DNA of 40,369 nucleotides, taken from the IMG/VR virus record IMGVR_UViG_3300003324_000175, positions 1 through 40,369 of that record. One strand, 5' to 3'. Each line of letters opens with the position of its first letter. Within the stretch, counting starts at the first letter, position 1. Both the position numbers and the translations under genes were made by a program. The stretch comes from a virus. The notes under the pieces are model-generated. The model searched no databases and was not told the origin of the DNA. It saw only the letters and a list, made by a program, of their open reading frames with translations. Below are positions 2,825 to 40,369 of this stretch, piece by piece.

Positions 2825-4108
2825 TTAGTACGCGAGGACGTTCGAGCCGAGAACGCCCAAGATCGAGTTGTTCAGAGTGAGGAAGGAGCCCCGGTCCGCG
2901 CTCTGGAGGGTGAACGTTACCTCCCAGGTCGAAGGGGTGAATTCGTGCTTGATCCCGCGAATGAACACGTCCTGGTCTATCGGGTCCCCGCCGCCCGGAG
3001 GGTGCCGGATGATCGTGATCCGGTCCCCCAGCTCCCGCGCGAAGACGGCGGGGACGATCAGGTCCGGGTCGTGGTGGACCTTGACCATGATCTCTGTGAA
3101 CCGGTTCTCCGGGTCCTTCGACTGGGACAAGATCCAGTTGGCCATCTGGAGGGCTTCGGTATCGGAGGTCAACAGGGGGTTGGACGGCGGGGTGAATGTG
3201 ACCTCGAAGTTCTCCGTGATCGAAGCCGTATCCGTCGCGATCTGTTCGGTTCCGCCCTCCCGCGTGACCTTCACCGTGTTGGCCATCGTGGAATCGTCCG
3301 TGGAGAAGGACAGAGCGTGGTACGGGATCTCCGCGCCCGTGGCCTGATCATTGAACGTGAGCTGGGATGTGTTTGAGCGCGCATCGGTCAGGAGCGCGTG
3401 ACGGTTGCGGAAGACCACCTTCCCGGCCGCGTCCACGTACAGCTCCCCCAGCTCCGACACGGCCGTTTGCTGGAGTTCGTCCAGGGTGTTCCCGCCCAGA
3501 TCCGTGGCCTGGAGAAGCGTGTCCCCGGTCGCCACAATCCGGTCCACCGCGCTCCAGCCGATCCCGTCCAGGATGCGGTCCACACGCGCGCCGGAGTCCT
3601 CATTCGCGCCGACCGACCCCCCGGCCGTCCGGTCGTTCCTGGAGAAGATCGAGAAGGCGTCCAGCGCGGGGACTACAGACGTAGAGTCATTGTTAGAAAG
3701 ATCATCCCATTTGACGTCGAAGTTCCCCGTGAACCCCTGGTAAAGATCGTAATTCACGCCGTCCCAGGACGCCCGGAGCCGGAAGGCCCGCCGCGCCTTC
3801 ACCAGGGAGGCCCCTCCCGAGACGTACGGGCCGTCCAGGTTCGTCGGGTCGAAGCGTCGATCACGGTTGTCCAGGACGGCCGTAGCCGTTCCCGGCTCAT
3901 ACGTGATCAAGGGGTTGTCCACGCGCGTGGACCCGCGCTGGACGGAGCCGGAGCGGACCCACTGAGATACGTCTGTGAACTCGCCGGACGCGCCTCCGGC
4001 CGCGATCCCCTGGCCCAGGACTCCCCGGATGGGGTCGTTCAAGACCAGCCACGTAGACGTAGAGATCCCGGAGAAGGCGATCTCCAGGACAGGGGTCGGA
4101 ACGCTCAT
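2825..4108 (-). CDS. Minor tail protein (tail tip/baseplate hub-like)
   Basis: This 427-residue protein starts at an ATG that overlaps the tape-measure stop as ATGA. It lies just downstream of the tape measure, where siphophages place distal-tail and hub proteins. The N-terminal third is beta-rich and carries RVDNPLITYEPGTATAVLDN and RRFDPTNLDGPY, patterns typical of actinophage minor tail proteins. The C-terminal third (ITIIRHPPGGG, HEFTPSTWEVTFTL) is also beta-rich. No enzymatic motif is visible. It should form part of the tail tip beneath the tape measure. Confidence 0.7.
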   Translation of the reverse strand: MSVPTPVLEIAFSGISTSTWLVLNDPIRGVLGQGIAAGGASGEFTDVSQWVRSGSVQRGSTRVDNPLITYEPGTATAVLDNRDRRFDPTNLDGPYVSGGASLVKARRAFRLRASWDGVNYDLYQGFTGNFDVKWDDLSNNDSTSVVPALDAFSIFSRNDRTAGGSVGANEDSGARVDRILDGIGWSAVDRIVATGDTLLQATDLGGNTLDELQQTAVSELGELYVDAAGKVVFRNRHALLTDARSNTSQLTFNDQATGAEIPYHALSFSTDDSTMANTVKVTREGGTEQIATDTASITENFEVTFTPPSNPLLTSDTEALQMANWILSQSKDPENRFTEIMVKVHHDPDLIVPAVFARELGDRITIIRHPPGGGDPIDQDVFIRGIKHEFTPSTWEVTFTLQSADRGSFLTLNNSILGVLGSNVLAY

Positions 4109-7071
4109 GTCGGGATCTTCCCCCCGCTCCGCTTGTACTCGCGGAGGACTTCGGCCACCTGGCGTCCGGCCTCCGCTGGGTTCGAGCCCACGGGGAGATT
4201 GATCGTGACATTGATCTCCTGGGTCCCCGCGATGCGCTGGAGCATGGTCGCCGGAAGCGCGTACTCCCCGCGCCCGGTGCCGTTGTAGATCGGGGGGTTC
4301 AGCCCCGGCCGGAGGATCGCGCCGGAGTCCGCGCGCATGAAGGAAGCCGGAGGGCGGCCCCACCACGCGGGACGCTCCGCCACCTCACGAACGAAGGCTC
4401 CGGTGTAGGGCGCTTCGATGATCCGTCCCTTGCCGGAGTACATGAAGGTGTGACCGGGGTGAGGCTGACCCACGTCGCCCTCTCGCTTCGCGCCGGAGAC
4501 CGGGGTCAACCAGGGGCGTTGTGTCTGGGTGGTCCTGGGCATGACGTTTCCGGTCGCCTTGTACCAGGCGTATTGCATGAGGCTGGAACAGTCGAAGCCC
4601 TTGATCCCCGCGCCCTGGGCGAAGCCGTACGACGCGCCACCGGGGCCGCCGCCGCCCCAGGAGTAGGGGGTCCCGATCACGCCACGGGCGGCCGTTACCG
4701 CCTTGTGACCGGGCCCGCCCATGAGATCTTCCTTCTTCACCAGGAAGTTGGAGATCGAGTCCATGAACTTGATCGGGACGCCCCCGATCATGGCCCCCAT
4801 GGGGGTCTTGCCGATCGTGTTATTGATCAGACCCTTCAGGGGGTTGAAGACCGCGTCCAGGGCCTTCTTCACGCCTCCGGCGAAGAAGTCCTTCGCCTTC
4901 TGCCCGAAGCCCTTGACCCAGCCGACAAGCCCGCCGTCCTTGAAGCCGGGAACCTGGCCTCCGGGGTCTCCAGCGAACCCGAGACGCTTCGCGATGTCCA
5001 CCCCCCGGCCGCGCCGGTTGATGTAGTCGATCAATCCCAGGTTGGACTTCGTGGCCATGGCGTTGACCATGAACTCCCCACGGGAGCCCCGGATCAGGAC
5101 GTCATCCGCCGTGGGCCCCTTGCCCATCTTGATCTGTCCACCGGTCGCGAACTTCGGCGCGTCCGGGAGCTTGGGCGACCCGATGAACCCGGCCACCTTG
5201 TCCCAAACGGCCTTGATCCCCTTCGTGTAGACCGTGTTGATCACGAACTCCACGGGCTTCTTCGCGTACTCCTTGATCTTGGCCCAGACGTCCCTGATCA
5301 TGTGGGCCGCACTCTCGAAGGCGGAGCCCAGGAGCCGGACACCGGATTTCACGGTGTTGAAGATCGGCTGGAGGAAGTTCCAGAGCCCACGGGCTCCGGC
5401 GACGATCCCGTTCCAGACCGGTTGCGCGACGTTCTTCCAGAGCCAGGTGAACACCGGGGCGAGAACAGTTTGGATGAACTTCTTGATCAAGATGAACACG
5501 GTCTGGATCAAGACCCAAGCGATCTTGATCTCGAAGACGATCAGCTTGAAGTAGTTCTTGATCACGTTCTCGTAGAGCCACTTGAAGATCGGCATGAGAA
5601 CAGTGGTGATCACGGTCTTGATCGCGTTGAACACGGGCAAGATCACGTTATTCCAGGCCCAGGAGATCACGGTCTGGATACCTTGCCACGCGGCTTGAAC
5701 GATCGCCCTGAACGTGTCCGATTTCTTGTAAGCGATCACCAGGGCGACCCCGAGAGCCACCAGGCCCAAGATCACCCACCCGATGGGGTTGTTCCACATG
5801 AGCAAGTTGAAGTTGAACTGAACGATCGCCCATGCCTTCGTCACGGCCGCGATCCCCTTGACCACGGTCGTGTAGATCGTGATCGCCGTGGTCACAGCGT
5901 AGATCCCGATGGCAAGCCCGCCCAGGGCGATCGTCGCCGTGGCGAAGTCCTGGGAGCTGATCCCGAAGCCGGACAGAAGCCCGGTGAACTTCTCAACCAG
6001 GGGGATCACGCGGTTCCCCACGGTGTCCACGAAGGTAGTGATCACCGTCCGTTTGAACGCCTCGATCTTGGAAGACGCGGACTCCCCGATGGTCTTCGCG
6101 GCTTGATCGGTCGCGCCGGAGAAGTCGCCCAGCTTCTTGGCCGCGCTGGAGGGGTCCAGCTTGAACAGAGCCTGACCCAAGTCTTCGGCCTGGGTCCCGA
6201 ACAGGGCTACGGCGATCTGAGACCGGTTCGCGCTGGGAGGAAGCGCGCGGAGCTTGTCCAAGGTCAGGTCCAGGGCTCCGGCCGCGCTCGAACCCCCCTT
6301 CGAGATCTTCGCGGCCATCACATCCGCGTCCAGCCCCAGAGCCTGGAACCCGGAGGCCACGCCCTTCGAGCCGTCCACGGCCCGGATGCTGAACTCCTTG
6401 ATCGCGTCCGCCACGATGTCCGAATCCCGCGCGCCAGCTTGGAGCCCCTGGACCAGGAGCCCGGTAGCCGTCTGGGCGTTCAGACCCATGTTCCGGAACA
6501 GGGTCGGGTATTCGTTCAGCGTGTCCAGGAGATCTTCAGCCTTGTTCGCCCCGAGCTGGGACCCCCTCACGATCACGTCCATGGCTTCGCTGGCCGACTT
6601 CGCGAGTCCGGTCCGCATGAGCTGGGAGACAGAGGCCGTGACGCGGCTTACGTCTTCCTCCATGACGTCGGCCACGGTCAGGGCCTTCTGGGTCATGGTC
6701 TGGAGCGCGTCAGAACTAGCTGACTTCATCCCGTCAATGTTCTGGACCACGGACTTCACAGCCGTGTTCACGGTCTCGATCGAGTCCCCGAAGTTGTTCG
6801 CGAAGACCTTCCCGGCCACGGCCCCGACCCGCTTCGCTTCGTCGCCCACCAGGCCAAGCTGGGCCGCCAGCTTGGCCTGTCCGGCTCCGATATCCAGGGT
6901 CTTGACCATCCCGGCCGCGAAGCCCGCTCCGGCCGCCAGACCAGCCACCTGGGCCTTCTGGTTGAACTTCTCCATCCGCGTCTGGAGTCGTTCAGCCGCG
7001 TTCCCGGCTTGTTCGAAGGTGGAACTAAGCCTGTCGATCCCTTGAAGGACGAACGCGAGGGTCCTTGCCAT
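4105..7071 (-). CDS. Tail tape measure protein with C-terminal NlpC/P60-type peptidase
   Basis: At 988 residues this is the second longest protein of the window and occupies the usual tape-measure position after the overlapping chaperone genes. The N-terminal half is helical and Ala-rich; the middle (about 370-560) has several hydrophobic stretches and repeated Trp-containing helices (VISWAWNNVILPVFNAI and similar). Near residues 800-920 an NlpC/P60-like domain carries the catalytic Cys in FDCSS (C828) and a His in HPGHTF (H874). The protein should set tail length during assembly, and the peptidase domain could open peptidoglycan during DNA entry. It overlaps its neighbours at both ends. Confidence 0.92.
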   Translation of the reverse strand: MARTLAFVLQGIDRLSSTFEQAGNAAERLQTRMEKFNQKAQVAGLAAGAGFAAGMVKTLDIGAGQAKLAAQLGLVGDEAKRVGAVAGKVFANNFGDSIETVNTAVKSVVQNIDGMKSASSDALQTMTQKALTVADVMEEDVSRVTASVSQLMRTGLAKSASEAMDVIVRGSQLGANKAEDLLDTLNEYPTLFRNMGLNAQTATGLLVQGLQAGARDSDIVADAIKEFSIRAVDGSKGVASGFQALGLDADVMAAKISKGGSSAAGALDLTLDKLRALPPSANRSQIAVALFGTQAEDLGQALFKLDPSSAAKKLGDFSGATDQAAKTIGESASSKIEAFKRTVITTFVDTVGNRVIPLVEKFTGLLSGFGISSQDFATATIALGGLAIGIYAVTTAITIYTTVVKGIAAVTKAWAIVQFNFNLLMWNNPIGWVILGLVALGVALVIAYKKSDTFRAIVQAAWQGIQTVISWAWNNVILPVFNAIKTVITTVLMPIFKWLYENVIKNYFKLIVFEIKIAWVLIQTVFILIKKFIQTVLAPVFTWLWKNVAQPVWNGIVAGARGLWNFLQPIFNTVKSGVRLLGSAFESAAHMIRDVWAKIKEYAKKPVEFVINTVYTKGIKAVWDKVAGFIGSPKLPDAPKFATGGQIKMGKGPTADDVLIRGSRGEFMVNAMATKSNLGLIDYINRRGRGVDIAKRLGFAGDPGGQVPGFKDGGLVGWVKGFGQKAKDFFAGGVKKALDAVFNPLKGLINNTIGKTPMGAMIGGVPIKFMDSISNFLVKKEDLMGGPGHKAVTAARGVIGTPYSWGGGGPGGASYGFAQGAGIKGFDCSSLMQYAWYKATGNVMPRTTQTQRPWLTPVSGAKREGDVGQPHPGHTFMYSGKGRIIEAPYTGAFVREVAERPAWWGRPPASFMRADSGAILRPGLNPPIYNGTGRGEYALPATMLQRIAGTQEINVTINLPVGSNPAEAGRQVAEVLREYKRSGGKIPT

Positions 7072-7752
7072 CGTTGATCAATCCCTTCGGGCGCGGGACT
7101 CGACGCGGGGGAGTGAGACCCTTCGCGCCCAGTCCGGCAGACAGGTGGTAATCCATCTCCCGGACCGCGTCCACGACGGACGCGAGACCTTCGACCACAG
7201 GGGACCAGTTGCTCTCTTCCACGCCGTTGACCCGCTCATAGACCGAACTGTCTCGCGGAAGACCATGGACCAGGACCCAGAGACGACGAAGGGACAAACG
7301 GCCGGAATACCACTCCGACAGTTGATCCTTATCGCGCGGGTAATACCTGGCAAGATCGGCCTCGATTTCCTCACTGTGACGCATGAGCAGGGCAAACAGC
7401 GTGATCAGTTTTTTACGGACGTCCCTCCCAGGGCGTCCCCGAGACGATCCATGAAGAGATCGAATTCGGAGGCGTCCATCTCCAGCTCCAGGAGCTGGTC
7501 CACGACGGCCTTCCCGAAGACCACCCCGAGACCCCCGGCCAGATCGTTACGCCCCATGAGCTGGGAGAACTTCAGCCGCTTGAACTTCTTGGGGATGATC
7601 AGGACCACTTCGCGGTCCTCCGTGTAGGGGTCGGAGCCGTCTTCCGGCTCGATCTCCTCCAGGTAGCGCCAGACGAAGATCTGGCCCCCCTTCGTGCCCT
7701 TCGCCTCCGCGTTCAGCGCCAGCGCCGCGCGATCCGTCGTGTCCGTGCTCAT
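7025..7752 (-). CDS. Tail assembly chaperone GT, made by -1 ribosomal frameshift
   Basis: The first 115 codons are shared with the short chaperone. At the end of that frame the heptamer A-AAA-AAC lies directly before the TGA stop, and a -1 slip continues into a second frame (LITLFALLMRHSEEIEADL) for 127 more residues, giving a protein of about 242 residues. The second frame also has an internal ATG at 7384, but the standard lambda G/GT arrangement in front of a tape measure makes the fusion the expected product. GT-type proteins bridge the tape measure and tail tube subunits during assembly and are absent from the virion. The end overlaps the tape-measure start by 47 bases. Confidence 0.88.
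7405..7752 (-). CDS. Tail assembly chaperone G (unshifted product)
   Basis: This 115-residue acidic protein is the normal termination product of the chaperone pair. It has KRLKFSQLMGRNDLAGGLGV and a helical acidic end (QLLELEMDASEFDLFMDRLGDAL), typical of actinophage tail assembly chaperones upstream of the slippery site. Its ATG overlaps the stop of the preceding gene as ATGA and is preceded by GATC. It probably coats the tape measure before tube polymerisation, with the longer GT form made in smaller amounts. Confidence 0.85.
   Translation of the reverse strand: MSTDTTDRAALALNAEAKGTKGGQIFVWRYLEEIEPEDGSDPYTEDREVVLIIPKKFKRLKFSQLMGRNDLAGGLGVVFGKAVVDQLLELEMDASEFDLFMDRLGDALGGTSVKN
7408..7414 (-). 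promoter_or_regulatory. Programmed -1 frameshift heptamer A-AAA-AAC
   Basis: On the minus strand the zero frame reads GTA AAA AAC TGA. The heptamer AAAAAAC is a canonical -1 slippery site, and slippage restores an open frame that ends inside the tape-measure start. Position and outcome match the conserved siphophage G/GT frameshift. Confidence 0.88.
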
Positions 7753-8258
7753 GATCCGAGTTCCCTTTCGATCTCATCCATGACGCGCCCGATCCCCGCG
7801 AAGACGCGGGGGCCGTACCGGGCGGCCGTCTGGTAGAAGTACGGCATTCGATCTTGTCTGACCCAGACGTCCGTGTTGCCGAACACGGGGTGCCGAAGGA
7901 CCCCGACCTGGGTCCCCCTGAAGCCTCCGGAGCCTTCGATGTAGGGCGGAAGGCCCTTCATGTCCGGGTCCCGGATCTTCTTCGGGTCCGTCTTGATCAC
8001 GACCGTAGCGGCATTGTTGGTCTTGACCTTCAGGATCGTAGCCCTGGACAGCTCTCTACGGAGGGAGGGACGGCCGCGCCGTCTGCTCTGCCCCATGGAG
8101 GGCGAAGCCAGCGCGGCGCGCCGGACGGCCACCAGCGCGGGCTTCGCCTCCGCCCGGATCTCCTTCGTCATACGCCTGATCAGGTCTGGCCTGTCCATGG
8201 CGCGGAGACAACGGCGGAACTCCGGGACGGAGTTTCCGGCCCCGACCCTCATAGCCAT
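7749..8258 (-). CDS. HK97 gp10-like tail completion/joining protein
   Basis: This 169-residue basic protein has a helical N-terminal half with many Arg residues (DLIRRMTKEIRAEAKPALVAVR), a central Arg/Ser-rich loop, and a C-terminal HPVFGNTDVWVRQ followed by a final helix ending in ERELGS. The pattern (basic helices, then a short H-P-V-F-G strand) fits the HK97 gp10-like family that completes the head-tail interface or tail. Its ATG follows the upstream stop TAG directly, and its own stop overlaps the chaperone start. Confidence 0.65.
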   Translation of the reverse strand: MAMRVGAGNSVPEFRRCLRAMDRPDLIRRMTKEIRAEAKPALVAVRRAALASPSMGQSRRRGRPSLRRELSRATILKVKTNNAATVVIKTDPKKIRDPDMKGLPPYIEGSGGFRGTQVGVLRHPVFGNTDVWVRQDRMPYFYQTAARYGPRVFAGIGRVMDEIERELGS

Positions 8259-8669
8259 CTAGCTGGTAGCCCTGGTGACCGTGCCGGACGTCGGCCAGCT
8301 CACGGAGCGGACGGCCAGCGCGCCGACCTCTCCGTCCAGCGGACCGACCTGGTTGACCAGGACGTTCCCGCTGTACTGGGGGTTCGTCGCGCTGGTGGCC
8401 GCGCTGGTGGGCTTCAGGGTGAAGGCCACCACCGTTCCGAAGATCGGCCAGAGGGTGGCGTCCGTCTGGGCCGCCGCGAAGTCGTTGATGAACTCGACCT
8501 CCAGCGTTCCCGTCTTCAGGCCACCGATCCGGGAGCGGTAGCCGCCCCCGCCCATGGTCGTGGTCTCCAGGTCTTCGGCCTCCACGTTCAGCGTGACGGA
8601 CCGGACCAGGGTCGTCAGCGTGACCGCGTTCACCGTGAGTACGGCGTCTGTGAATGAGAATGCCGCCAT
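8259..8669 (-). CDS. Tail tube-type protein, shorter paralog
   Basis: This 136-residue protein shares its first 60 or so residues with the next gene upstream: both have a FSxTDA opening, VTLN-x-E-x-EDL, TT, and an R-x-RIGGLKT signature. The rest (VAFTLKPTSAATS and PQYSGNVLVNQ) is beta-rich, as in tail tube or tail-completion folds. With two paralogs side by side, one is probably the main tube subunit; this one lacks the extra C-terminal domain. It has an AAGGAG ribosome site and GATC next to the ATG. Confidence 0.65.
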   Translation of the reverse strand: MAAFSFTDAVLTVNAVTLTTLVRSVTLNVEAEDLETTTMGGGGYRSRIGGLKTGTLEVEFINDFAAAQTDATLWPIFGTVVAFTLKPTSAATSATNPQYSGNVLVNQVGPLDGEVGALAVRSVSWPTSGTVTRATS

Positions 8670-8678
8670 GATCTCTCC

Positions 8679-9401
8679 TTAGGCTCCGATCCCCACGGCG
8701 GAGGCGATCGAGAATGTTCCGGTCACGGCCGTGACGCGGAGTCGGTACCAGTCGTCCGTGAGCGGCCCAGCGACGCGAACGCCCCAGGTGCCCCCGGCTA
8801 CGGTGATCGGTCCGAATGTGATCCTGGTGGTTGCGGAGGCGAAGGTGTTCGCGTCGTCCGACTCCAGAACGGCTGTGATGGTCGTACCGGCGCTGAAGAC
8901 GTGGAAGGTCCCATAGAGGTACTGGCCGGACGCCACGCCCCCTACGAGCTGCACAGCCGTCCCTGTGGCTCCCGTAGCGCTGACCGACCCCTTGACCTTC
9001 GTCCAGACGCCCCGGATCAGCCCTTCGCCGTTCGTGTTCATGGAGCTGAAGGAGAAGGGGGTGGCCGCGCCGACCTCTCCGAACTGCTCATACGAGAATT
9101 CGCCCAGGCGCGCCAGGTAAGCCGTCTCCCCCTCCGTCCGGGTCGGGCCCACTGTGTGGGGTCGGGGCGTCCCGCCCAGGGCGTTGAACGTGTCCGCGTC
9201 TACGGTGTTCGCGTCGTGGAACCCCGCAAGATCCAGGTTCGCGGTCTTCAAGCCCCCGATGCGGGTCCGCCACCCTCCGGACGCGAAGGTGGTCACGTCC
9301 AGATCTTCGCCCTCCGCGTTCAGCGTGACCTGGTTGGAGACCCCGGTCAGGTCCACGCCGTCCACGTAGATCGTCGCGTCCGTCAGGGAGAACGCCGTCA
9401 T
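8679..9401 (-). CDS. Major tail protein-like, longer paralog
   Basis: This 240-residue protein has an N-terminal half paralogous to the gene downstream (VTLNAEGEDLDVTTF, RTRIGGLKT) and then a distinct beta-rich domain from about residue 110 to the end. That C-terminal part, with TFHVFSAGTTITAVLESDD and an Ig- or carbohydrate-binding-like strand pattern, could decorate the outside of the tail tube. It lies where siphophages carry the major tail protein, between the terminator-like and chaperone genes. Its ATG overlaps the stop of a 56-codon gene. Confidence 0.7.
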   Translation of the reverse strand: MTAFSLTDATIYVDGVDLTGVSNQVTLNAEGEDLDVTTFASGGWRTRIGGLKTANLDLAGFHDANTVDADTFNALGGTPRPHTVGPTRTEGETAYLARLGEFSYEQFGEVGAATPFSFSSMNTNGEGLIRGVWTKVKGSVSATGATGTAVQLVGGVASGQYLYGTFHVFSAGTTITAVLESDDANTFASATTRITFGPITVAGGTWGVRVAGPLTDDWYRLRVTAVTGTFSIASAVGIGA

Positions 9402-9568
9402 TCTGGATCACCCGCCTTCTTGGCCCGCTTCGCGGCCACGGGCGCGATGTGGCCGGACTCCAGGAGCGCGCCCAGGTTGACCAGCTCCGGGTCCAGCTCC
9501 ACGACTTCCCCCGGCTGAACGTCAGCCACGGGGAACGGTCCGGTAACAGTGAATCTCTGAAGACTCAT
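9398..9568 (-). CDS. Small conserved-position protein between tail terminator and tail tube genes
   Basis: This 56-residue protein (MSLQRFTVTGPF at the start, AAKRAKKAGDPE at the end) overlaps its neighbours by four bases (ATGA) at both ends, strong evidence that it is a real, translationally coupled gene. It has a beta-rich first half and a basic C-terminus. Comparable short proteins occur at this place in other actinophages, but I know no function for them. Confidence 0.7.
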   Translation of the reverse strand: MSLQRFTVTGPFPVADVQPGEVVELDPELVNLGALLESGHIAPVAAKRAKKAGDPE

Positions 9569-9984
9569 GAGTCCCCCCTAGCGATCACGTACAGGGTGAA
9601 GACGCCCCCGAAGTACCCGAAAGCCGCGTACTCCTCCAGGTCCAGGGGGCGGAACTGGGTCACGGTCGCGTCCGAAACGCGACCCCCCAGGGTCTTGTCC
9701 GCGTCGATCGCGGCGCGGATTGACATGGAGCCGGATGGGTTCGCGTATTCGGCCAGGAGGTTCTGACCGACCCGGTTCACGACCTGGGAAGTGAACACCG
9801 TGATCGTGGGCTCCAGCTCGAAGTGACCGCGCGCCATGCTGGAGTAGTAGGTGTTCACGGTCGGGAGGCCCACGACGGCCACCGGGGGGTTGATATCCCC
9901 CTCGAACATCTCTTCTACTCGAAGCTTGGGGATCGGTCCCAGGGCCGCCGCGATCCCCTCCACAACGTCCATGATCGTGCTCAT
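9565..9984 (-). CDS. Putative tail terminator protein
   Basis: This 139-residue protein has the pattern of actinophage tail terminators: an N-terminal helix (TIMDVVEGIAAAL), central strands, a conserved IRAAIDADKTLGG segment, then EYAAFGYFGGVFTLYV. It would cap the finished tail tube and join it to the head. The ATG chosen overlaps the upstream stop as ATGA. Assignment rests on this pattern and on gene order between the connector and tail tube genes. Confidence 0.65.
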   Translation of the reverse strand: MSTIMDVVEGIAAALGPIPKLRVEEMFEGDINPPVAVVGLPTVNTYYSSMARGHFELEPTITVFTSQVVNRVGQNLLAEYANPSGSMSIRAAIDADKTLGGRVSDATVTQFRPLDLEEYAAFGYFGGVFTLYVIARGDS

Positions 9985-10595
9985 GCGACCATGACCACCT
10001 TTCGGCGGTACGGGCTGATCCAGGCCATGGCCATGGGGTTCTCCCGGACGCGGATGGACCCCCACTGACCGAAGCCAGCGACTCCGAACGGAGCCTCCCG
10101 AAGCTTGTAGATCTCTTCGGCCACGGTGAAGGCGGCGGAGGTCACGGGGTCCGGGATAGCGGCCCAGCCCCATTGCGCCGTTACCCGGACGTTCGCGGCC
10201 GGAGCGAAGCTGAAGCACTTCGAGCGAACGGCCCGGATGCGCCAGTACGGCCACCCCTGGACCCCGTCCACGATCCCGTTCAGGGGCTCCAGTTGGTAGT
10301 CCGCCGCGCTCCAGGTGGCCCAGGCGCTCCCGGACCCGCTGGTGTCCGTCTCGATCACCAGGCCCGTGGTCGTGTGGAAGTCGTGGACGTCCGCGAAGTC
10401 GGAGGCGTCCGGGTAGAACAGGCGCGCGGACGCGCTGGTGGTCTTGTTGAAGTCGCGCCGACACACGAAGTTGATCCCCGCGCTGGCCGTCTTCCGGGCG
10501 AACTCCAGTCGATCATCATCCTGGGTGTCCGTGAGTTCGATCCCCAGGAACGTCTTCAGTTGATCAAGCGTGATGTACGGGTCGCCCAGAGCCAT
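9981..10595 (-). CDS. Head-tail connector (HK97 gp6-like adaptor)
   Basis: This 204-residue protein starts with YITLDQLKTFLGIELTDTQD and continues with helices (DRLEFARKTASAGINFVC), the usual look of gp6-type adaptors that dock below the portal. A beta-rich middle and a C-terminal helix (AFTVAEEIYKLRE) follow. It lies directly after the glycosyltransferase, with GATC before its ATG. The adaptor ring would seal packaged DNA and receive the tail. Confidence 0.7.
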   Translation of the reverse strand: MALGDPYITLDQLKTFLGIELTDTQDDDRLEFARKTASAGINFVCRRDFNKTTSASARLFYPDASDFADVHDFHTTTGLVIETDTSGSGSAWATWSAADYQLEPLNGIVDGVQGWPYWRIRAVRSKCFSFAPAANVRVTAQWGWAAIPDPVTSAAFTVAEEIYKLREAPFGVAGFGQWGSIRVRENPMAMAWISPYRRKVVMVA

Positions 10596-10597
10596 GA

Positions 10598-11395
10598 TCA
10601 GCCACCCTCCCCCAGCTCCCGCGCCATGCGGGACAGGTCGAAGGTCTCTTCATCTAGGAACAGGACACCTTTGTGATGGTTGGTCTTCACGCTGGTGTCC
10701 ACCCAGAGGGGGAGGTCCACGGCCGCGATGCGGAGGCAGAACGAAAGATCTTCGGAGAAGGTCCGGGGCCCGCCCTTCAGCGCCGTGGGGTGAGTGATCG
10801 GATCGAACCAGACCGGTCCGAACTTGTCGGCCACCAGCTCCAGCGCGGAGCGATGGATCATGAGCGCGGCGGCCCCGGTGCCGGAGACCTGGACCAGTTC
10901 GTTCCGGGGGTAGTCGGAGATCGGGAGGAACCCGATCGAATCGGGCTGTTCCACGTAGTGGTACAGGGTGGGCTGAATCGTGAAGCGCTCCCCGTACATG
11001 TGGGCCTGGGAGTCGGGAGGGGGAAAGCGGAGGCACGCGAAGCACAGCGCGCCGACCACCGGCCGCTCCGGGCCGCACGATTCCACCAGGCGCTCCACGA
11101 TGTCCGGCGCGAAGCCCATGTCCGTGTCGATCATGAACAGGTACTCCGCGTCCGTGACCTCCAGGAAGTCCCGCGCGATCTTGTTACGACCCCCGGCCAG
11201 ACCACCGGCCCCGGTCAGCGCCCGGAGTTCGAGCCCTCCCGGCCGGACGATCCGCTGACGGGTCATCACGTCCTGGAGGAGAAGATCACGGTAAGAGAGC
11301 CCGAACGACGCGGACCAGGTCCCGCCGTCCATGAAGCCCACCGCCACCGACCCAGGAACGGGGGCCGCGAAGGTTCCAGGAGGGGCCTTCTTCAC
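10598..11395 (-). CDS. Family 2-like (GT-A fold) glycosyltransferase in the capsid operon
   Basis: This 265-residue protein has GT-A features: GGRNKIARDFL, the DxD motif D90-T-D92 in YLFMIDTDMGF, PDIVERLVE, an acidic pair in FSEDLSFCLR (E215, D216) and a C-terminal His pair (TNHHKG, H240-H241) that may bind metal. It should transfer a sugar from a nucleotide donor. The GTG start overlaps the upstream stop as GTGA, so it belongs to the head gene operon between the capsid and the connectors. Phage-encoded glycosyltransferases that modify virion proteins are known in mycobacteriophages; a capsid or tail target here is inferred. Confidence 0.8.
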   Translation of the reverse strand: MKKAPPGTFAAPVPGSVAVGFMDGGTWSASFGLSYRDLLLQDVMTRQRIVRPGGLELRALTGAGGLAGGRNKIARDFLEVTDAEYLFMIDTDMGFAPDIVERLVESCGPERPVVGALCFACLRFPPPDSQAHMYGERFTIQPTLYHYVEQPDSIGFLPISDYPRNELVQVSGTGAAALMIHRSALELVADKFGPVWFDPITHPTALKGGPRTFSEDLSFCLRIAAVDLPLWVDTSVKTNHHKGVLFLDEETFDLSRMARELGEGG

Positions 11396-17481: not shown

Positions 17482-17603
17482 GATCGTGACTCTCCGTCGA
17501 ATAGTCCTAGGCGGCGCTGAGAAGCCCCCAGACGCCTTGACCCCCGGTCACGGTACAACCACCCCGGAGCTTTCTGCCAGGGGTTTTCCCAGGTCAGAGC
17601 CAT
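17478..17603 (-). CDS. 41-residue Trp-rich microprotein (copy A of a duplicated module)
   Basis: This short reading frame begins ALTWENPWQ, continues PGWLY and ends LFDGESRS, with its stop overlapping the next start as ATGA. A second copy of the same DNA module near 30.3 kb encodes a related peptide (ALTWGNPWQ, PGWLY, GLFDG), which supports translation at least ancestrally. The gene also contains one TTGAC-N5-GTCAC operator-like site. It has no known family. It is basic and compact and could be a small regulator. Confidence 0.5.
   Translation of the reverse strand: MALTWENPWQKAPGWLYRDRGSRRLGASQRRLGLFDGESRS
17481..17601. repeat. Duplicated 120-bp module, copy A
   Basis: This segment and the one at 30232-30351 are clearly related along their whole length. 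They share CCGTCGAATAG near one end, the TTGAC-N5-GTCAC site and ACAACCACCCCGG in the middle, and CTGCCAGGGG and CCCAGGTCAGAG at the other end. Confidence 0.8.
17537..17551. promoter_or_regulatory. Operator-like inverted repeat, site 1 (TTGAC-CCCCG-GTCAC)
   Basis: This site lies inside copy A of the duplicated module and within the 41-codon reading frame. TTGACC could be a rightward -35 box, but the hexamer 17 bases on (CACCCC) is a poor -10, so a binding-only role may be more likely. Confidence 0.55.
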
Positions 17604-30241: not shown

Positions 30242-30351
30242 ACTCCGTCGAATAGCCCTGGACGGCTCTCAGACGGCCGTAGAGCCCTTTGACCCCTAGT
30301 CACGTACAACCACCCCGGAAAATTCTGCCAGGGGTTTCCCCAGGTCAGAGC
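30232..30351. repeat. Duplicated 120-bp module, copy B
   Basis: This is the second copy of the module near the terminase genes. On the minus strand it still encodes the related peptide segments ALTWGNPWQ, PGWLY and GLFDG, but without an adjacent start codon. Single-base differences around the operator-like site shift the peptide frame while keeping the inverted repeat, which suggests that the DNA site is the constrained part. Confidence 0.75.
30289..30303. promoter_or_regulatory. Operator-like inverted repeat, site 6 (TTGAC-CCCTA-GTCAC)
   Basis: This is the counterpart of site 1 in copy B of the duplicated module. As there, no convincing -10 box follows. It lies in a gap of about 500 bases without an obvious plus-strand gene. 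Confidence 0.55.
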
Positions 30352-30441: not shown

Positions 30442-30447
30442 AATCCC

Positions 30448-30476
30448 TTGACTCGGGGTCACGCCCATGGGAGTTT
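30448..30476 (+). promoter_or_regulatory. Promoter with operator site 7 (TTGAC-TCGGG-GTCAC)
   Basis: TTGACT and GAGTTT are separated by exactly 17 bases, and the operator covers the -35 box. The predicted transcript starts near 30483 and enters the hairpin-punctuated operon through a leader of about 250 bases. Confidence 0.65.
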
Positions 30477-30482
30477 GGAGAC

Positions 30483-30731
30483 ACAACAGAACAGGGACAA
30501 GGCACTCCGCCCCGGTACGTAGGGATCGCAAGATCCACACAGTCCTCCAAACCCGGCAAGCCAGAGAACCAGGCCGAAGTCCTACCGAATAGAAGGATCA
30601 CCCAAGCGCTTCGCCAGCGCTCCCCGAAGGGGGCAGTGATCACACGGTGGCACCGTAAGCGCGATCGAGTTCGGTCCGGCCTTACGGGGCCGTGGCCGTG
30701 CCCGATCGGGCAGGAAGACGGAGGAAAGATC
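30483..30731 (+). other. Long structured 5' leader without a convincing gene
   Basis: The stretch between the predicted start of the site 7 transcript and the first gene has no reading frame with a good ribosome site. It holds several short inverted repeats (CCCC-GAA-GGGG, ACGGTG-G-CACCGT, an AGCGCT pair) and ends with the first copy of the UNCG hairpin family. It may fold into a regulatory leader. Confidence 0.45.
30670..30700 (+). repeat. Intergenic UNCG hairpin element, copy 1
   Basis: This is the variant copy with a UACG loop: TTCGGTCCGG, a CGGCC stem closed by a U-G pair around UACG, then CCGTGGCCGTG. A second short hairpin (GCCC-GATC-GGGC) follows before the ribosome site of the 105-codon gene. 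Confidence 0.75.
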
Positions 30732-31049
30732 ATGACCGCGTACACGCTCCCCCAGTGCGACGTCTTCATGGACCGTGAGCCCGGAGTGGCCGCGTCCCTG
30801 GAGTCGATCCACGAATGCGGCGGGAACGACTGGACGTGCCCGAACGGCGTCTACCTGGAGCTGGCCCACGGGGAGTACGAAGACTCCCTGGACGGCCTGG
30901 ACGAACAGGACGAAGCCGTGAAGGCGCTCTGGGACGCCTACAGCCTGACCTTCGAAGACGCCTGGGAGGCCACCGTGTCCGCCCTGGTGACGCTCGGATG
31001 GACCCCCGGCAACGCTCGGGACGCCGTCCGGCGGGTTCGCCCCTGGTGA
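30732..31049 (+). CDS. Hypothetical acidic protein, first gene of the hairpin operon
   Basis: This 105-residue acidic protein has a Cys-containing first half (LPQCDVFMD, ESIHECGGNDWTCPNGVYLE) and a helical second half (DEAVKALWDAYSLTFEDAW, LVTLGWTPGNARDAV). GGAGGAAA and GATC precede the ATG. No family is recognised. Three Cys and a His in the first half could bind metal. Confidence 0.6.
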   Translation: MTAYTLPQCDVFMDREPGVAASLESIHECGGNDWTCPNGVYLELAHGEYEDSLDGLDEQDEAVKALWDAYSLTFEDAWEATVSALVTLGWTPGNARDAVRRVRPW

Positions 31050-31054
31050 TCCGC

Positions 31055-31086
31055 TTCGGTCCGGCCCTTCGGGGCCGTGGCCGTGG
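31055..31086 (+). repeat. Intergenic UNCG hairpin element, copy 2
   Basis: This is the consensus copy: TTCGGTCCGG, a stem around UUCG (CGGCCC/GGGCCG), then CCGTGGCCGTGG. It lies between the first gene of the operon and the Nudix gene. Confidence 0.85.
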
Positions 31087-31104
31087 CCGCTCAACGGAGG
31101 AAGC

Positions 31105-31530
31105 ATGACCAAGATCTACAAGGTTCGCGCCCTGGTGATCGACTCCCAGGGCCGCGCGCTGGCCATCGAAGCTGACGCGCCCCACGTTCTCCAGCTCCCC
31201 GGAGGGAGCCGGAAAGCGAAGGAAGACAAGATCAAGGCTCTCCGCCGCGAGATGCGGGAGGAACTGGGCCACACGATCAAGAAGGTCCGGCACGTTCGGA
31301 AGATCAAGGTTCGCCGGAACGGCGCGACGGAGATCACGGACTTCTACGTGTGCCGGATCAAGGGTGGCCACGGCCGCCCCAGCCTGACCGGGCGCGAAGC
31401 GCGGCGCGGCCTTCGGGTGTGCCGCTACGAGAGCCCCAAGGCGCTCCACAAGGCCCTGAAGCGCCGCGTCAAGGCCCACGGCCGGAGCGCGGCCCAGCGG
31501 GACCTGACGCTGGTCTCCAGCGCCGTCTGA
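31105..31530 (+). CDS. Nudix hydrolase
   Basis: This 141-residue protein has an almost perfect Nudix box at 34-56 (G-x5-E-x7-REMREELGH: G34, E40, R48, E49, E52, E53, G55). Nudix enzymes hydrolyse nucleoside diphosphate derivatives; the substrate cannot be predicted. The C-terminal half is highly basic (ALKRRVKAHGRSAAQR), which is unusual and could bind RNA or DNA. GGAGGAA lies before the ATG, after a hairpin element. Confidence 0.88.
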   Translation: MTKIYKVRALVIDSQGRALAIEADAPHVLQLPGGSRKAKEDKIKALRREMREELGHTIKKVRHVRKIKVRRNGATEITDFYVCRIKGGHGRPSLTGREARRGLRVCRYESPKALHKALKRRVKAHGRSAAQRDLTLVSSAV

Positions 31531-31535
31531 ACGAC

Positions 31536-31567
31536 TTCGGTCCGGCCCTTCGGGGCCGTGGCCGTGG
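31536..31567 (+). repeat. Intergenic UNCG hairpin element, copy 3
   Basis: This copy has the same 32-base sequence as copy 2. A second weaker hairpin with different sequence (TGGTCAG with CTGATCA) follows before the DUF932 gene. Confidence 0.85.
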
Positions 31568-31609
31568 CTGGTCAGACCTACTGATCAACCGACGGAAGGA
31601 ACACCCACC

Positions 31610-32887
31610 ATGAAGAAGATCGTCCGTAACGCGATCCAGAACGGGACCGACGTGAACGAAGAGTTCCGCCAGTCCAAGCTGGACCAGATCAAGAGCGCGG
31701 AGAACGCATACCAGGCCGTCCAGGACCAGCTTCAGTCCGGCGCGATCACCGCGCTGGGGGACAACCGCTATCGGGTGAACACCGGCTGGGACCGGGGCGA
31801 AGTGATCATGATCGACGTGGCCGCGCTCCAGGACAACGCGCTGACGGCCGAAGAGGCGATCAAGGGAGCCCACGGCCTGGACCTGAAGGCGGACGGCTCC
31901 GTGGCGCTCTACCACCGGACTCCGGCCTGGTGGGGGAACGGGACCATGATCCCCGCTGGTCTGACCGACGTGGACGCGGTCCTGAAGGCGGCGGGCCTGG
32001 ACTTCACGATCTCCAAGCGCGCGACCCCGTTCCTGACCCCGGACGGAGACTGGGTCCAGGTGCCGGACTCCTTCACCACCGTCCGGACGGACGCGGACGG
32101 GACGGAGACCCCCTTCGCCACGGTCGGGAAGATCTACCAGACCGTTCAGAACCGGGAGGCGTTCGCCTTCCTGGAGAAGCTGTTCGGGGACCACGAGTTC
32201 ATCCCCGAGACGGCCGCGCCGCTTCGCGGGGGCCGGAAGGTCTTCATCTCCGCGCGGATGCCGGAGGACATGATCGTGGACCCCGGAGGTATCGCGGACC
32301 ACATCCGGCTGTACCTGATCGTCGCGAACTCGCACGACGGGACCACCCCGATCCGGGCCTACGCCACGCCGTGGCGTCCGGAGTGCGAGAACACGGAGCG
32401 CTTCGGCCTCCGGGACGCGGCTTACTCCTGGACCGTTCGGCACACGCGGAACTGGGCGGACAAGTACGCCCAGGCGGCGGAGACGCTTCGTCTCTCGACC
32501 AAGTTCGCGGAGAACTGGATCTCCGAGGAAACGGAGCTGGTCCAGGCGTCCTTCACCATGGATGAGCTGGACGCCCTGATCACGGACGTCTGGGGCGAGA
32601 TCGACGGCGACGCTTCGAAGCGGGCCGTGACCATGGACGCGGCGCGGCGGAACGACATCGCGGAGCGCTGGGAGATCGAGTCCAACAAGGTCGGGGCCAC
32701 CGCGTACGCGGCGGAGCGCGCGATCACGGGGAGCGTGGACCACTTCACCACCCTGAAGCCGCGTGACCCGGTCCTCCAGGGCTCCGGCAACCGTCTCGCG
32801 GCCCTGGGCGCGGCCATCCTCGAAGACTCCCTGGCGGAGAACAAGAACAAGGCCCACGTCCGGCTCCTGGAGCTGGTCCGGCGCTGA
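31610..32887 (+). CDS. DUF932 (phage/plasmid-like) protein
   Basis: This 425-residue protein matches the DUF932 family pattern: an N-terminal ALYHRTPAWWGNG, then ISKRATPFLTPDG, PFATVGKIYQTVQNREAFAFLEKL, MIVDPGG, LYLIVANSHDGTTPIRAYATPWRPECENT and the helical C-terminal half. DUF932 proteins are widespread in plasmids and phages. Their biochemical role is not firmly known, and links to replication or DNA repair have been suggested. GGAAGGAA precedes the ATG by several bases. Confidence 0.85.
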   Translation: MKKIVRNAIQNGTDVNEEFRQSKLDQIKSAENAYQAVQDQLQSGAITALGDNRYRVNTGWDRGEVIMIDVAALQDNALTAEEAIKGAHGLDLKADGSVALYHRTPAWWGNGTMIPAGLTDVDAVLKAAGLDFTISKRATPFLTPDGDWVQVPDSFTTVRTDADGTETPFATVGKIYQTVQNREAFAFLEKLFGDHEFIPETAAPLRGGRKVFISARMPEDMIVDPGGIADHIRLYLIVANSHDGTTPIRAYATPWRPECENTERFGLRDAAYSWTVRHTRNWADKYAQAAETLRLSTKFAENWISEETELVQASFTMDELDALITDVWGEIDGDASKRAVTMDAARRNDIAERWEIESNKVGATAYAAERAITGSVDHFTTLKPRDPVLQGSGNRLAALGAAILEDSLAENKNKAHVRLLELVRR

Positions 32888-32892
32888 CCCCC

Positions 32893-32926
32893 TTCGGTCC
32901 GGCCCCTTCGGGGGCCGTGGCCGTGG
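32893..32926 (+). repeat. Intergenic UNCG hairpin element, copy 4
   Basis: The stem is one pair longer here (GGCCCC-UUCG-GGGGCC), with conserved flanks TTCGGTCC and CCGTGGCCGTGG. A second hairpin based on GGTTCAGA/TCTGAATCC follows. Confidence 0.85.
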
Positions 32927-32968
32927 AGGTTCAGAACCATCTGAATCCCTGACGGAGGGAAGATCGCT

Positions 32969-33130
32969 TTGACCGACGAACCGAAGGTCCGCGTGATCAT
33001 CATGACGGAGACCATCCCGGACGGCCGTGGAGAACGGGTGTTCGAAGGGACGGCCACGGAATCCGGCCTGGACAAGATCATCGAAGCGGCCCAGGACGCG
33101 GACAATTGGGCCGTTCACGGGATCGCGTGA
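32969..33130 (+). CDS. 53-residue hypothetical protein with TTG start
   Basis: The frame starts TDEPKVRVIIMTETI and ends DADNWAVHGIA. A GGAGGGA ribosome site precedes the TTG at good spacing, and the stop overlaps the next ATG as TGATG. It is strand-rich, then helical (ESGLDKIIEAAQDAD). No family is recognised. Confidence 0.65.
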   Translation: MTDEPKVRVIIMTETIPDGRGERVFEGTATESGLDKIIEAAQDADNWAVHGIA

Positions 33131-33330
33131 TGTGCGGGAAGGTGCTGGTCCTGGACGGACCGAACGACACCGGAGACCCCCGGCTGGACGAAGGTCGGGA
33201 GTTCACCTGTACGCGGCGCTATCCCCCGGTCCACTTCGTCCACCACGACGGCGCGGCGGAGTGGTTCCGACTCCTCCCCGACCTGTTCCAGATCCGCTTC
33301 CTGGAGCTGGTGAGAAAGGAGGAAGCGTGA
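33130..33330 (+). CDS. 66-residue hypothetical protein
   Basis: This protein begins MCGKVLVLDGPND and has a Cys and several His/Arg in the middle (TCTRRYPPVHFVHHDG), ending in a helix (LFQIRFLELVRKEE). It is coupled to the previous gene by TGATG. No family is recognised. Confidence 0.6.
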   Translation: MCGKVLVLDGPNDTGDPRLDEGREFTCTRRYPPVHFVHHDGAAEWFRLLPDLFQIRFLELVRKEEA

Positions 33331-33352
33331 TCCCTGGCGGTACCTGAACCCC

Positions 33353-33386
33353 TTCGGTCCGGCTCCTTCGGGAGCCGTGGCCGTGG
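33353..33386 (+). repeat. Intergenic UNCG hairpin element, copy 5
   Basis: The stem carries a compensatory change (GGCTCC-UUCG-GGAGCC) relative to copy 4, preserving pairing while the sequence differs. A second hairpin (GGCTCA with TGAGCC) follows. Confidence 0.85.
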
Positions 33387-33431
33387 AGGCTCACAAACCG
33401 AGATGAGCCCCTGACGGAGGGAAACTCCCGA

Positions 33432-33905
33432 ATGTCCAACAAGGTCAAGTACTTCCCCACCGCCGTGGAGGAGATCACGGTCTCCGGCTCCGTGCTGGTG
33501 GTCGGGAACGTGATGTGCGCCCCCGCGATCACGTGCCCGGACCCCGAGTGTGGGGAGGACTCCGTCCCCACCTCCCTGGCCATCGTCTACCAGTGGGAGC
33601 CGGACTCCGGCTGGAAGGAGCTGGACTTCATGGTCAACGCGCTCCACAAGGGCGCGGAGGTGGCCATCCCCAAGGAGCTGTTCGTGGACCACGTCCAGGC
33701 CCCCCAGATGCTGAAGGACATCGCGTCCGTGGCCTCGAAGCTGGGCGTGGACCTCCCGCTCTCCGCCCCCGGCCTGGGCGCGCCCCCGGAGTGGCTGACG
33801 GCCGCCGTGGAGCACTTCAAGCCCCGGATGAAGCCCGCCGTGAACCACGCCCCGTTCCAGTGGGACGCCAGCGCGGCGGCGGACCAGACCATCCCGGACG
33901 CCTGA
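33432..33905 (+). CDS. Hypothetical protein
   Basis: This 157-residue protein has a beta-rich first half with a possible metal-binding cluster (MCAPAITCPDPECG), then helices (APQMLKDIASVASKLGVDLPL) and a Pro/Ala-rich end. No family is recognised. It is the fifth gene of the hairpin operon, preceded by GGAGGGAAA. Confidence 0.6.
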   Translation: MSNKVKYFPTAVEEITVSGSVLVVGNVMCAPAITCPDPECGEDSVPTSLAIVYQWEPDSGWKELDFMVNALHKGAEVAIPKELFVDHVQAPQMLKDIASVASKLGVDLPLSAPGLGAPPEWLTAAVEHFKPRMKPAVNHAPFQWDASAAADQTIPDA

Positions 33906-33910
33906 TCCAG

Positions 33911-33962
33911 TTCGGTCCCGTACCAACCCTCTCGGGGGAGGGCTGGTACGGGTGCCGTGCCG
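33911..33962 (+). repeat. Divergent intergenic hairpin element, copy 6
   Basis: The outer flanks of the family are kept (TTCGGTCC and GCCGTG), but the stem is replaced by a longer one: CCCGTACCA pairs with TGGTACGGG, followed by an A/C mismatch and a CCCTC/GAGGG inner stem. Structure is conserved while sequence changes. Confidence 0.7.
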
Positions 33963-33983
33963 GTACCAGACGAAAGGATCATC

Positions 33984-34349
33984 ATGTACCGAATCGAGTC
34001 CAAGGACCCCCACGGGGTCCACGGTTCCATGACCATCACGACGGAGGTCCAGGGCGTACCGGACCAGAAGCACAACTACAGCACCCAGACGTTCCGCCCG
34101 GAAACGCTCCAGATCACGTACCGCATGGACGGCCGTGGGATCTGGGCCCCCACCGAATGGCGACTCTCCGGCCGCCGCGTCCTGAAGGACGGCGGACTGG
34201 GCCTGTCGGTCCACGAGAACCACGGGTACGGGTTCCGGGTCGGCCAGACCGTTCCGGCCTGGATCGACGAAGCCGCCGCCTACTTCGCGCCGGAGCGGAC
34301 GCGCGTCCTGGAGCCGGGGTCCGTGCTCCAGATCAACCCGCGTCCCTGA
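33984..34349 (+). CDS. Hypothetical protein
   Basis: This 121-residue strand-rich protein (GSMTITTEVQGV, ETLQITYRMDGRGIW, GLGLSVHENHGYGFRVG) ends with AYFAPERTRVLEPGS. AAAGGATCATC precedes the ATG. No family is recognised. Confidence 0.6.
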   Translation: MYRIESKDPHGVHGSMTITTEVQGVPDQKHNYSTQTFRPETLQITYRMDGRGIWAPTEWRLSGRRVLKDGGLGLSVHENHGYGFRVGQTVPAWIDEAAAYFAPERTRVLEPGSVLQINPRP

Positions 34350-34356
34350 TTGGCCC

Positions 34357-34385
34357 TTGACGGCCTGTCACGTCCGTGAGACGTT
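34357..34385 (+). promoter_or_regulatory. Promoter with operator site 8 (TTGAC-GGCCT-GTCAC)
   Basis: TTGACG and GACGTT are separated by 17 bases, with the operator over the -35 box. The predicted start is near 34392, 28 bases before the ATG of the 74-codon gene. It gives the last two genes of the operon their own regulated start. Confidence 0.65.
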
Positions 34386-34419
34386 CAAGTTCAGACGGAT
34401 TCAAGACGGAGGGATGACC

Positions 34420-34644
34420 ATGAAGGACATGAAGATCTTCCGGTTCACGCTGGAGGAAGCAGACTACGAAGAGTACGACGGCTTCGTGATCGCGGCCCGG
34501 TCGGCGCGGGAGGCCCGGAAGATCCTGAAGGACGCCCTGGAGGACACCCTGACCGAAGGTCGGGAGATGGAGTACGACCGGGAGGAGATCATCCTTCAGG
34601 ATCTTCGTCCGGGGGTCATCCTCTCTTCCAACGTCGGCGCGTGA
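34420..34644 (+). CDS. Small acidic hypothetical protein
   Basis: This 74-residue acidic protein (FTLEEADYEEYDGFVIAA, ARKILKDALEDTLTEGREM) has a beta-alpha pattern. I prefer the ATG that lies six bases after GGAGGG over the one next to it. No family is recognised; its regulated promoter suggests early expression. Confidence 0.6.
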   Translation: MKDMKIFRFTLEEADYEEYDGFVIAARSAREARKILKDALEDTLTEGREMEYDREEIILQDLRPGVILSSNVGA

Positions 34645-34649
34645 GCCCC

Positions 34650-34681
34650 TTCGGTCCGGCCCTTCGGGGCCGTGGCCGTGG
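34650..34681 (+). repeat. Intergenic UNCG hairpin element, copy 7
   Basis: This copy has the same 32-base sequence as copies 2 and 3, followed by a second hairpin (GGGGCT with AGCCCC) and the ribosome site of the last gene of the operon. Confidence 0.85.
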
Positions 34682-34722
34682 GGGCTCAATCCGGATGAAG
34701 CCCCAGGTGAAAGGATCATGAG

Positions 34723-34930: not shown

Positions 34931-34950
34931 GGGGCCGCTACGGCGGCCCC
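34931..34950 (+). terminator. Hairpin with UACG loop
   Basis: GGGGCCGC pairs perfectly with GCGGCCCC around a UACG tetraloop, 20 bases after the last stop of the rightward operon. It is probably the first of two tandem terminators. Confidence 0.65.
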
Positions 34951-34970: not shown

Positions 34971-35013
34971 ACGAAAGCCCGCCCAGGACGGAGGATTCTG
35001 GGCGGGCTTTCGT
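34971..35013. terminator. Strong bidirectional terminator hairpin
   Basis: A perfect 16-bp stem (ACGAAAGCCCGCCCAG and its complement) encloses an 11-base loop between the converging rightward operon and the leftward translocase operon. Confidence 0.85.
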
Positions 35014-39821: not shown

Positions 39822-40369
39822 CTAGGTGATCTTGGCCGTCCAGGCGGCCTTCCAGGACATCGGGCCCAGGACCCCGTCCACGGATAGGCCCTTCTCTTCC
39901 TGGAAGGCGCGAAGGATCTCTTCGTCCCGCGCGGAGAAGGTCCCGTCTACGGTGATCGCCCAGCCGCGCTTACGCATCTGGGTTTGCCAGGTGCGGACGT
40001 CCGTCCCGGACATCGCGGGAGGTTGAGTGATCAGGCGTCCCGGCCACGGGGGAACGGCCGGAGCTTCAGGTTCCGGCGCGGCGGGGGACTTGCCCGGCAT
40101 GAACTGGCCGTAGTCCGGCTTCATGGCCCGGTCGTAATCGACGTCTCCCCCGCCCATGTTGACGCCGTTCTTGTACTGCTGGAGCTGGGCGCGGGGGTCC
40201 CACTTCCCTTCGCTCCAGGCGTAGGTCTGCCACCCCCAGGTGATGAGACCTTCATCGAAGCCCCATCTGATCGGGTCGTAACCCGCGTACATCCCGACCC
40301 GCGCCGCGCCGATCACGTCGGTCACGCCCTTGAAGTACTTCTTGGCGTCGAAGTCCACGGCGAAGTAGA
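39822..40369 (-). CDS. Endolysin, C-terminal part with peptidoglycan-binding domain
   Basis: This continues the endolysin that begins at base 304 of the left end. It completes the catalytic DUF1906-like domain (GVTDVIGAARVGMYAGYDPI, GLITWGWQTYAWSEGKW, GGDVDYDRA), then a Pro/Ala-rich linker. The last 70 residues form a PG_binding_1-like helical repeat (VRTWQTQMRKRGWAITVDG, then AFQEEKGLSVDGVLGPMSW). That domain would hold the enzyme on the cell wall. The apparent GTG start at 40358 is an artefact of the cut; the real protein has 275 residues. Confidence 0.88.
   Translation of the reverse strand, partial: YFAVDFDAKKYFKGVTDVIGAARVGMYAGYDPIRWGFDEGLITWGWQTYAWSEGKWDPRAQLQQYKNGVNMGGGDVDYDRAMKPDYGQFMPGKSPAAPEPEAPAVPPWPGRLITQPPAMSGTDVRTWQTQMRKRGWAITVDGTFSARDEEILRAFQEEKGLSVDGVLGPMSWKAAWTAKIT
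40346..40369. repeat. 24-bp terminal direct repeat, right copy
   Basis: This is the exact copy of bases 1-24. After one copy is removed the unique sequence is 40,345 bases and can be drawn as a circle. Confidence 0.9.

Follow-up and report, generated by a model that had tools for sequence, protein, structure and literature searches.

A family of covarying RNA hairpins incorporating a UGA codon at cistron boundaries of an actinophage operon

The virus record IMGVR_UViG_3300003324_000175 was analysed over its whole length of 40,369 bases, which is referred to here as the window. Positions 1-24 and 40346-40369, at the two ends of the window, are identical (CGTCGAAGTCCACGGCGAAGTAGA), and owing to these matching ends the record is probably a complete genome that may be read circularly. 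The gene set is of the actinophage type, with terminase, portal, tape measure, primase-polymerase, helicase and an FtsK-like protein, and the phage is a soil-type actinobacteriophage. Its primase-polymerase shares approximately 40% identity with its counterparts in Streptomyces phages such as Xkcd426, phiSAJS1 and YDN12, and because of this resemblance the host is probably Streptomyces or a relative. The operon investigated, putatively an early one, spans approximately 30.7 to 34.9 kb and has a NUDIX gene and a DUF932 gene among its genes. Gene boundaries are given according to our own simple gene predictions.

A constant core, TTCGGTCC, begins in this operon at positions 30670, 31055, 31536, 32893, 33353, 33911 and 34650. 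These are the seven starts listed in an earlier note on this DNA, and a covariance model built on the seven copies (R1) detected exactly the same sites on the + strand of the window, with scores of 54-73 bits and E-values from 1.6e-13 to 3.4e-19. An eighth copy was not found in the window by R1, the next best match, other than the antisense strand of these sites, scoring 15 bits. All seven copies are located on one strand and in one operon, in agreement with the previous statement that the element is absent from the other operons. Seven gene junctions had also been reported; six of the copies do follow genes, but copy 1 is located in the leader of the first gene.

Copy 1 (30659..30711, +, 70.6 bits) carries a UACG loop and an outer stem, CGATCG-a-G / C-c-CGATCG, in which CGA occupies the place of UGA and is compensated by UCG. 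Copy 2 (31044..31096, +, 68.9 bits), copy 3 (31525..31577, +, 73.3 bits) and copy 4 (32882..32936, +, 68.6 bits) all have a UUCG loop, and the gene before each of them terminates at the UGA of the copy (31047-31049, 31528-31530 and 32885-32887, respectively); the gene in question is the NUDIX gene for copy 3 and the DUF932 gene for copy 4. Copy 5 (33342..33396, +, 68.3 bits) has the inner stem GGCTCC/GGAGCC and keeps the UGA at 33345-33347, the likely upstream gene having its stop before it, at 33330. In copy 6 (33900..33970, +, 54.1 bits), where the UGA at 33903-33905 is again a stop codon, the inner stem has been exchanged for a longer, unrelated stem without a UNCG loop, and the U.U/U.G signature described below is kept. 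Copy 7 (34639..34691, +, 73.4 bits) ends its preceding gene with the UGA at 34642-34644 and has an uninterrupted outer stem, UGAGCCCC/GGGGCUCA. The UNCG cap formerly ascribed to every copy is consequently a property of all but copy 6. A 3′ flank described as fixed also varies: CCGTGGCCGTGG is replaced by GGGTGCCGTGCC in copy 6, and the flank of copy 1 ends in CCGTGGCCGTGC, with a different last base.

By a search with the FtsK-like protein, one close relative was found, IMG/VR 3300037483_000092 (39,493 bases), in which this protein is 68% identical. In the matching operon of the relative, R1 detected five copies (r1-r5) at 17-32 bits, and because the model is blind to gene junctions, their placing at junctions was not built into the search. 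The NUDIX and DUF932 proteins of the relative are 73% and 68% identical to those of the window. The two genes are in reversed order relative to the window (31105-32887) and both adjoin elements, and the genes neighbouring them differ between the two phages. A UACG hairpin was also seen 3′ of the DUF932 gene of the relative. A covariance model of all 12 copies (R2) scored the copies of both phages at E-values from 1e-7 to 6e-11.

Searches beyond these two phages gave no further convincing member. Exact and loose pattern scans of IMG/VR were without match in the first two rounds, and the loosest gave chance matches only, lacking the fold. A pattern scan of 84,980 bacterial genomes gave two matches, both without the fold, and one S. 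kebangsaanensis genome gave nothing beyond a weak R1 match (E 0.06). The operon had no match to phages by blastn, and single-sequence searches with the DUF932 and primase-polymerase proteins found no relatives in IMG/VR. An alignment of three primases led to 15 more distant loci, none of which contained the element, and R2 gave no convincing match in 19 relatives at a greater distance (best E 0.009). Neither the window nor the relative matched Rfam at the gathering score, and the family is not described in the literature searched, which was that of open papers.

Folding showed that the constant core is nested in a longer hairpin with an interrupted stem of 18-26 bp in all 12 copies. The outer part of this stem is specific to each copy and runs from the UGA, located five bases before UU (UGA-N5-UU), down to a UCA just 3′ of the core; examples other than that of copy 7 are GUCUGA/UCAGAC in copy 3 and CGAUCG/CGAUCG in copy 1. 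The structure thus extends further than the earlier note described, as the outer stem reaches the UGA codon. The UGA occurs in the same place in 11 of the 12 copies and pairs there with the UCA, the exception being copy 1 with its CGA paired to UCG. The preceding gene terminates at this UGA in copies 2, 3, 4, 6, 7, r2, r3 and r5, and probably also in r1. At copy 5 and r4 the likely upstream gene stops sooner and in another frame, and the UGA is still kept. As the UGA is retained where it is probably not a gene stop, and is replaced by a compensated CGA/UCG in copy 1, it is a structural part of the element as well as, mostly, a stop codon. The genes downstream of the copies have their own ribosome sites and starts. 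A programmed stop readthrough or bypass element was considered and rejected, the frames being inconsistent and the extensions ranging from 17 to 185 codons.

The outer stem was spotted by eye before it was tested. When the outer strands were swapped between copies, 45-55 of the 5040 permutations paired as well as the strands did with their own partners, for the main positions. With the constant UGA/UCA pairs omitted and positions 9-12 added, a choice of positions made after the data had been seen, only 3 of 5040 were as good. As it was in the window copies that the stem had been spotted, the five copies of the relative represent more independent support. For the whole hairpin, two-sided change was present in 10 of 23 pairs among the seven window copies, with a covariation score of 0.246 compared to 0.098 in shuffles and none of 500 shuffles as high. 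Across the twelve copies, which are related sequences from two phages and whose kinship is kept in the shuffles, two-sided change was found in 11 of 17 pairs, and none of 500 shuffles equalled the covariation score or the cells paired. The earlier claim of a covarying RNA structure is well borne out by these results and by the five copies of the relative, and its companion, that the element is not a coding repeat, gained strong support, also from the second phage.

Three positions in the middle of the hairpin did not follow this pattern of change. A U.G pair, an adjoining U.U mismatch and a second U.G above three intervening pairs were unchanged in all 12 copies. The three intervening core pairs covary across the same copies (CG/UA, GC/CG and GC/AU), these changes being probably few as evolutionary events, three or four. 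Invariant U.U and U.G positions amid covarying Watson-Crick pairs suggest that the hairpin is specifically recognised. The layout is one in which an outer strand starts from the UGA, the middle holds the invariant signature and the top is free to vary. The copies are best read as a single family of hairpins that are transcribed and act in cis as RNA, at the cistron boundaries of a polycistronic phage operon.

The transcriptional setting of the copies may be outlined as follows: The motif CTTGAC-N5-GTCAC, an inverted repeat overlapping a -35-like TTGAC, gave 11 matches in the window at no more than one mismatch, against 0.8 expected. Exact matches were located at 17536+, 18897+, 25227+, 30447+, 34356+ and 38042-, and matches with one mismatch at 30288+, 20368- and others. 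Several precede operons and matching copies are present in the relative, and the motif likely represents a phage promoter/operator family. The copy at 30447..30462 (+) is upstream of the leader, with copy 1 approximately 210 bases 3′ of the motif, and that at 34356..34371 (+), matched in the relative, is at the one junction of the operon that has neither a gene overlap nor an element. Promoter-like motifs within the operon were limited to the leader and this element-free junction, and the copies therefore appear to lie inside polycistronic transcripts. No T-run follows any copy, and a scan displayed no + strand terminator-like site there; the canonical intrinsic terminator was rejected on account of the T-run missing after every copy. 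The shortest gene gap, of 55 nt, is wholly taken up by the element and a ribosome site, and together with the missing T-runs this indicates that transcription probably runs through. A hairpin with an A-run and a T-run, GAAAGCCCGCCCAG...CTGGGCGGGCTTTC (34973..35011, no strand assigned), is located where convergent operons end and is likely to be a two-way terminator, judged from its composition. A perfect hairpin, GGGGCCGC-UACG-GCGGCCCC (34931..34950, +), found 3′ of the last gene of the operon, is not a copy of the element and is not among the R1 matches.

A second hairpin had been described after most copies. It is clear 3′ of copies 3, 4, 5 and 7, and weak or missing after the others. For copies 3, 4, 5, 7 and r1-r4, the 3′ outer strand can alternatively pair with a strand immediately preceding the ribosome site of the next gene. 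In the window, the possible alternative hairpins, all on the + strand, are at 31569..31587 after copy 3, where the 3′ outer-stem strand is reused, and at 32928..32947, 33388..33409 and 34681..34704 after copies 4, 5 and 7, respectively. The case for the alternative hairpin is suggestive.

Among the functions considered, segmentation of the mRNA with protection of its ends, in which an RNase III-type nuclease may act, is the one we tentatively prefer, at somewhat less than an even chance. Of the three functions offered in the earlier note, its processing or stability element thereby fits best. The hairpin would fold when the terminating ribosome leaves, would be recognised as a distorted duplex of approximately two helical turns, perhaps by host RNase III, and would give each cistron a structured, protected end, the mRNA being segmented in this way. 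In such a course of events the cleavage, the nuclease and the effect on the mRNA are steps that we infer. Segmentation is preferred because the copies appear inside polycistronic transcripts and because mismatched stems of 18-26 bp fit a double-strand nuclease. In Streptomyces coelicolor, the hairpin between rpsO and pnp is cut by RNase III, the site being an internal loop (PMC10126417). All 12 copies have mismatches and a bulge in their stems, and their 18-26 bp correspond to the duplex of approximately two helical turns with internal loops expected of an RNase III site. RNase III needs no fixed sequence, however, and therefore explains the invariant signature poorly. A duplex substrate would lose stability through the mismatches at outer positions two and five, and the fixed spacing of the UGA could simply reflect an element that brings its own stop codon; both count against segmentation.

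A specific binder would account for the invariant non-canonical positions better than segmentation does. The element might accordingly be a recognition site for a phage or host protein, such as an RNA-binding regulator or an antitermination factor, that would recognise the U.U/U.G signature of the nascent RNA at each junction. The non-Watson-Crick positions are the same in every one of the 12 copies, amid neighbouring pairs that covary, and the first copy is in the leader approximately 210 bases after the promoter-like motif, but the candidate binding protein is putative, the scan shows no T-run terminators inside the operon to be suppressed, and put consists of two copies near promoters with two stem-loops (PMC9378689), compared with seven copies at gene ends here. 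We regard such a site as possible, although rather unlikely, and the put-like signal proposed before survives in this loose sense, as an RNA recognised in the nascent transcript, and not as a member of HK022 put. The attenuator formerly suggested at each junction is likewise weakened. Partial intrinsic terminators without a poly-U tail would step down expression along the operon, and strong GC hairpins directly 3′ of genes agree with this, as does the early region of the Streptomyces phage phiC31, for which hairpin terminators lacking a 3′ poly-U are reported, according to Ingham 1995 as cited in PMC4411717. Yet a T-run is found at no copy and is present at the operon-end hairpin, no consistent promoter is located 3′ of the copies, a ribosome halting 5 nt before the core would hinder folding of the hairpin, and termination would not need the invariant U.U/U.G signature; attenuation is in our judgement unlikely. 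A more elaborate conjecture, to be held with equal reserve, is that a dedicated factor reads, at every boundary, a sequence-specific RNA element built on the stop codon and marked by the invariant U.G/U.U/U.G, and thereby links translation termination to mRNA processing or to the RNA polymerase.

The reversed order of the NUDIX and DUF932 genes in the relative, each adjoining elements and with different neighbours, and the retention, in copies 5 and r4, of a UGA that is likely not a gene stop, would also agree with a DNA cassette or recombination module that moves with or between genes, the hairpin being selected as a recombination or insertion site. Conserved sense-strand G.U wobbles and far lower antisense scores speak for RNA instead. 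Every copy also has the same orientation, inspection by eye showed no attC-like core site, and no recombinase gene is tied to the element, which makes a cassette very improbable. The least probable reading, to which we give hardly any weight, is a ribosome-controlled RNA switch, with the 3′ outer strand pairing either with the stop-codon strand or with the strand before the ribosome site. Here own strands did better than swapped ones, in the window (42 of 5040 permutations) and in both phages (P from 0.003 for the duplex to 0.03 for the hairpin), but such energies are common, 42% of random genome sites being at or below -9 kcal/mol, and copies 1, 2 and r5 are without the alternative hairpin. 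Exposure of the ribosome site showed no consistent effect when the stop strand was blocked, and a translational switch acting through such exposure was rejected for this reason.

Repeated junction hairpins are present in several unrelated groups of Streptomyces phages, and the papers searched say little on their role. Twelve copies in two phages, with a fold fixed by covariation and invariant non-canonical positions that can be mutated singly, make a clean test case, and the element-free junction in the operon is an internal control. If the mRNA is indeed segmented, the element illustrates how phages of high GC content fix expression levels gene by gene within a packed operon; if the signature is read by a factor, it is a new RNA-protein target.

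Phage T7 has RNase III sites between its early genes, which are not known to enclose the stop codon at a fixed spacing. The T7 sites and the Streptomyces rpsO-pnp hairpin (PMC10126417) resemble the window element in being long interrupted hairpins between cistrons of one transcript; cleavage of the window element is putative. The ESAS/SAS of Cluster K mycobacteriophages are likewise phage-specific inverted repeats in multiple copies, placed before a subset of non-structural genes (PMC3203893). ESAS consists of conserved 17-bp arms and a 13-bp start-associated sequence, whereas the arms of the window element vary and covary, and SAS GGGATAGGAGCCC gave four matches at two mismatches in the window, against 2.4 by chance, none of them at the copies. 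HK022 put shares with the element a structured nascent RNA with a bulged U, but consists of two stem-loops of approximately 70 nt in two copies near early promoters (PMC9378689); membership was rejected, the window having one long hairpin in seven copies at gene ends.

The most striking likeness in arrangement is found in Tomas, Jay2Jay and other Boydwoodruffvirinae Streptomyces phages, in which, as in the window, a UNCG stem varying by copy and then a constant sequence are present at most early-region junctions. In 12 kb of Tomas there are 12 copies, located at 3729-11236, with a UNCG-capped variable stem and a constant GACCGGCCCGGTC, at early junctions, and the Tomas-like repeat sequence occurs in 37 Streptomyces phage records. 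The constant tag differs, however, being GACCGGCCCGGTC in Tomas or TGTCC-GGCCC-GGACA-like in Jay2Jay, itself a small hairpin, and no GACCGGCCCGGTC-like tag is present 3′ of the window copies. Unlike in the window, a promoter-like TAGACT often stands between the repeat of the Boydwoodruffvirinae and the gene that follows. R2 found no member of the window family in Tomas; a Tomas copy with a near-identical core was assigned to Tomas's own repeat family. At the majority of their early junctions, the Woodruffvirus phages YDN12 and Xkcd426, Dubu and phiC31 also have a strong hairpin 3′ of the stop codon (z below -2 for 11 of 11 junctions in YDN12 and 13 of 15 in Xkcd426), with sequences unrelated to the window element. 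YDN12 and Xkcd426 have a constant apex, GGTTGC-N4-GCAGCC, not found in the window element, and at many of their early junctions a promoter-like TTGCA-N17-TAGCGT overlaps the hairpin. The Dubu hairpins are followed by short T-runs, which the window copies lack. None of the Streptomyces phage junction hairpins compared shares the sequence, the outer stem or the signature of the element. Repeated hairpins at phage gene junctions already exist as a general kind, and the family in the window is a variant of it unlike those compared.
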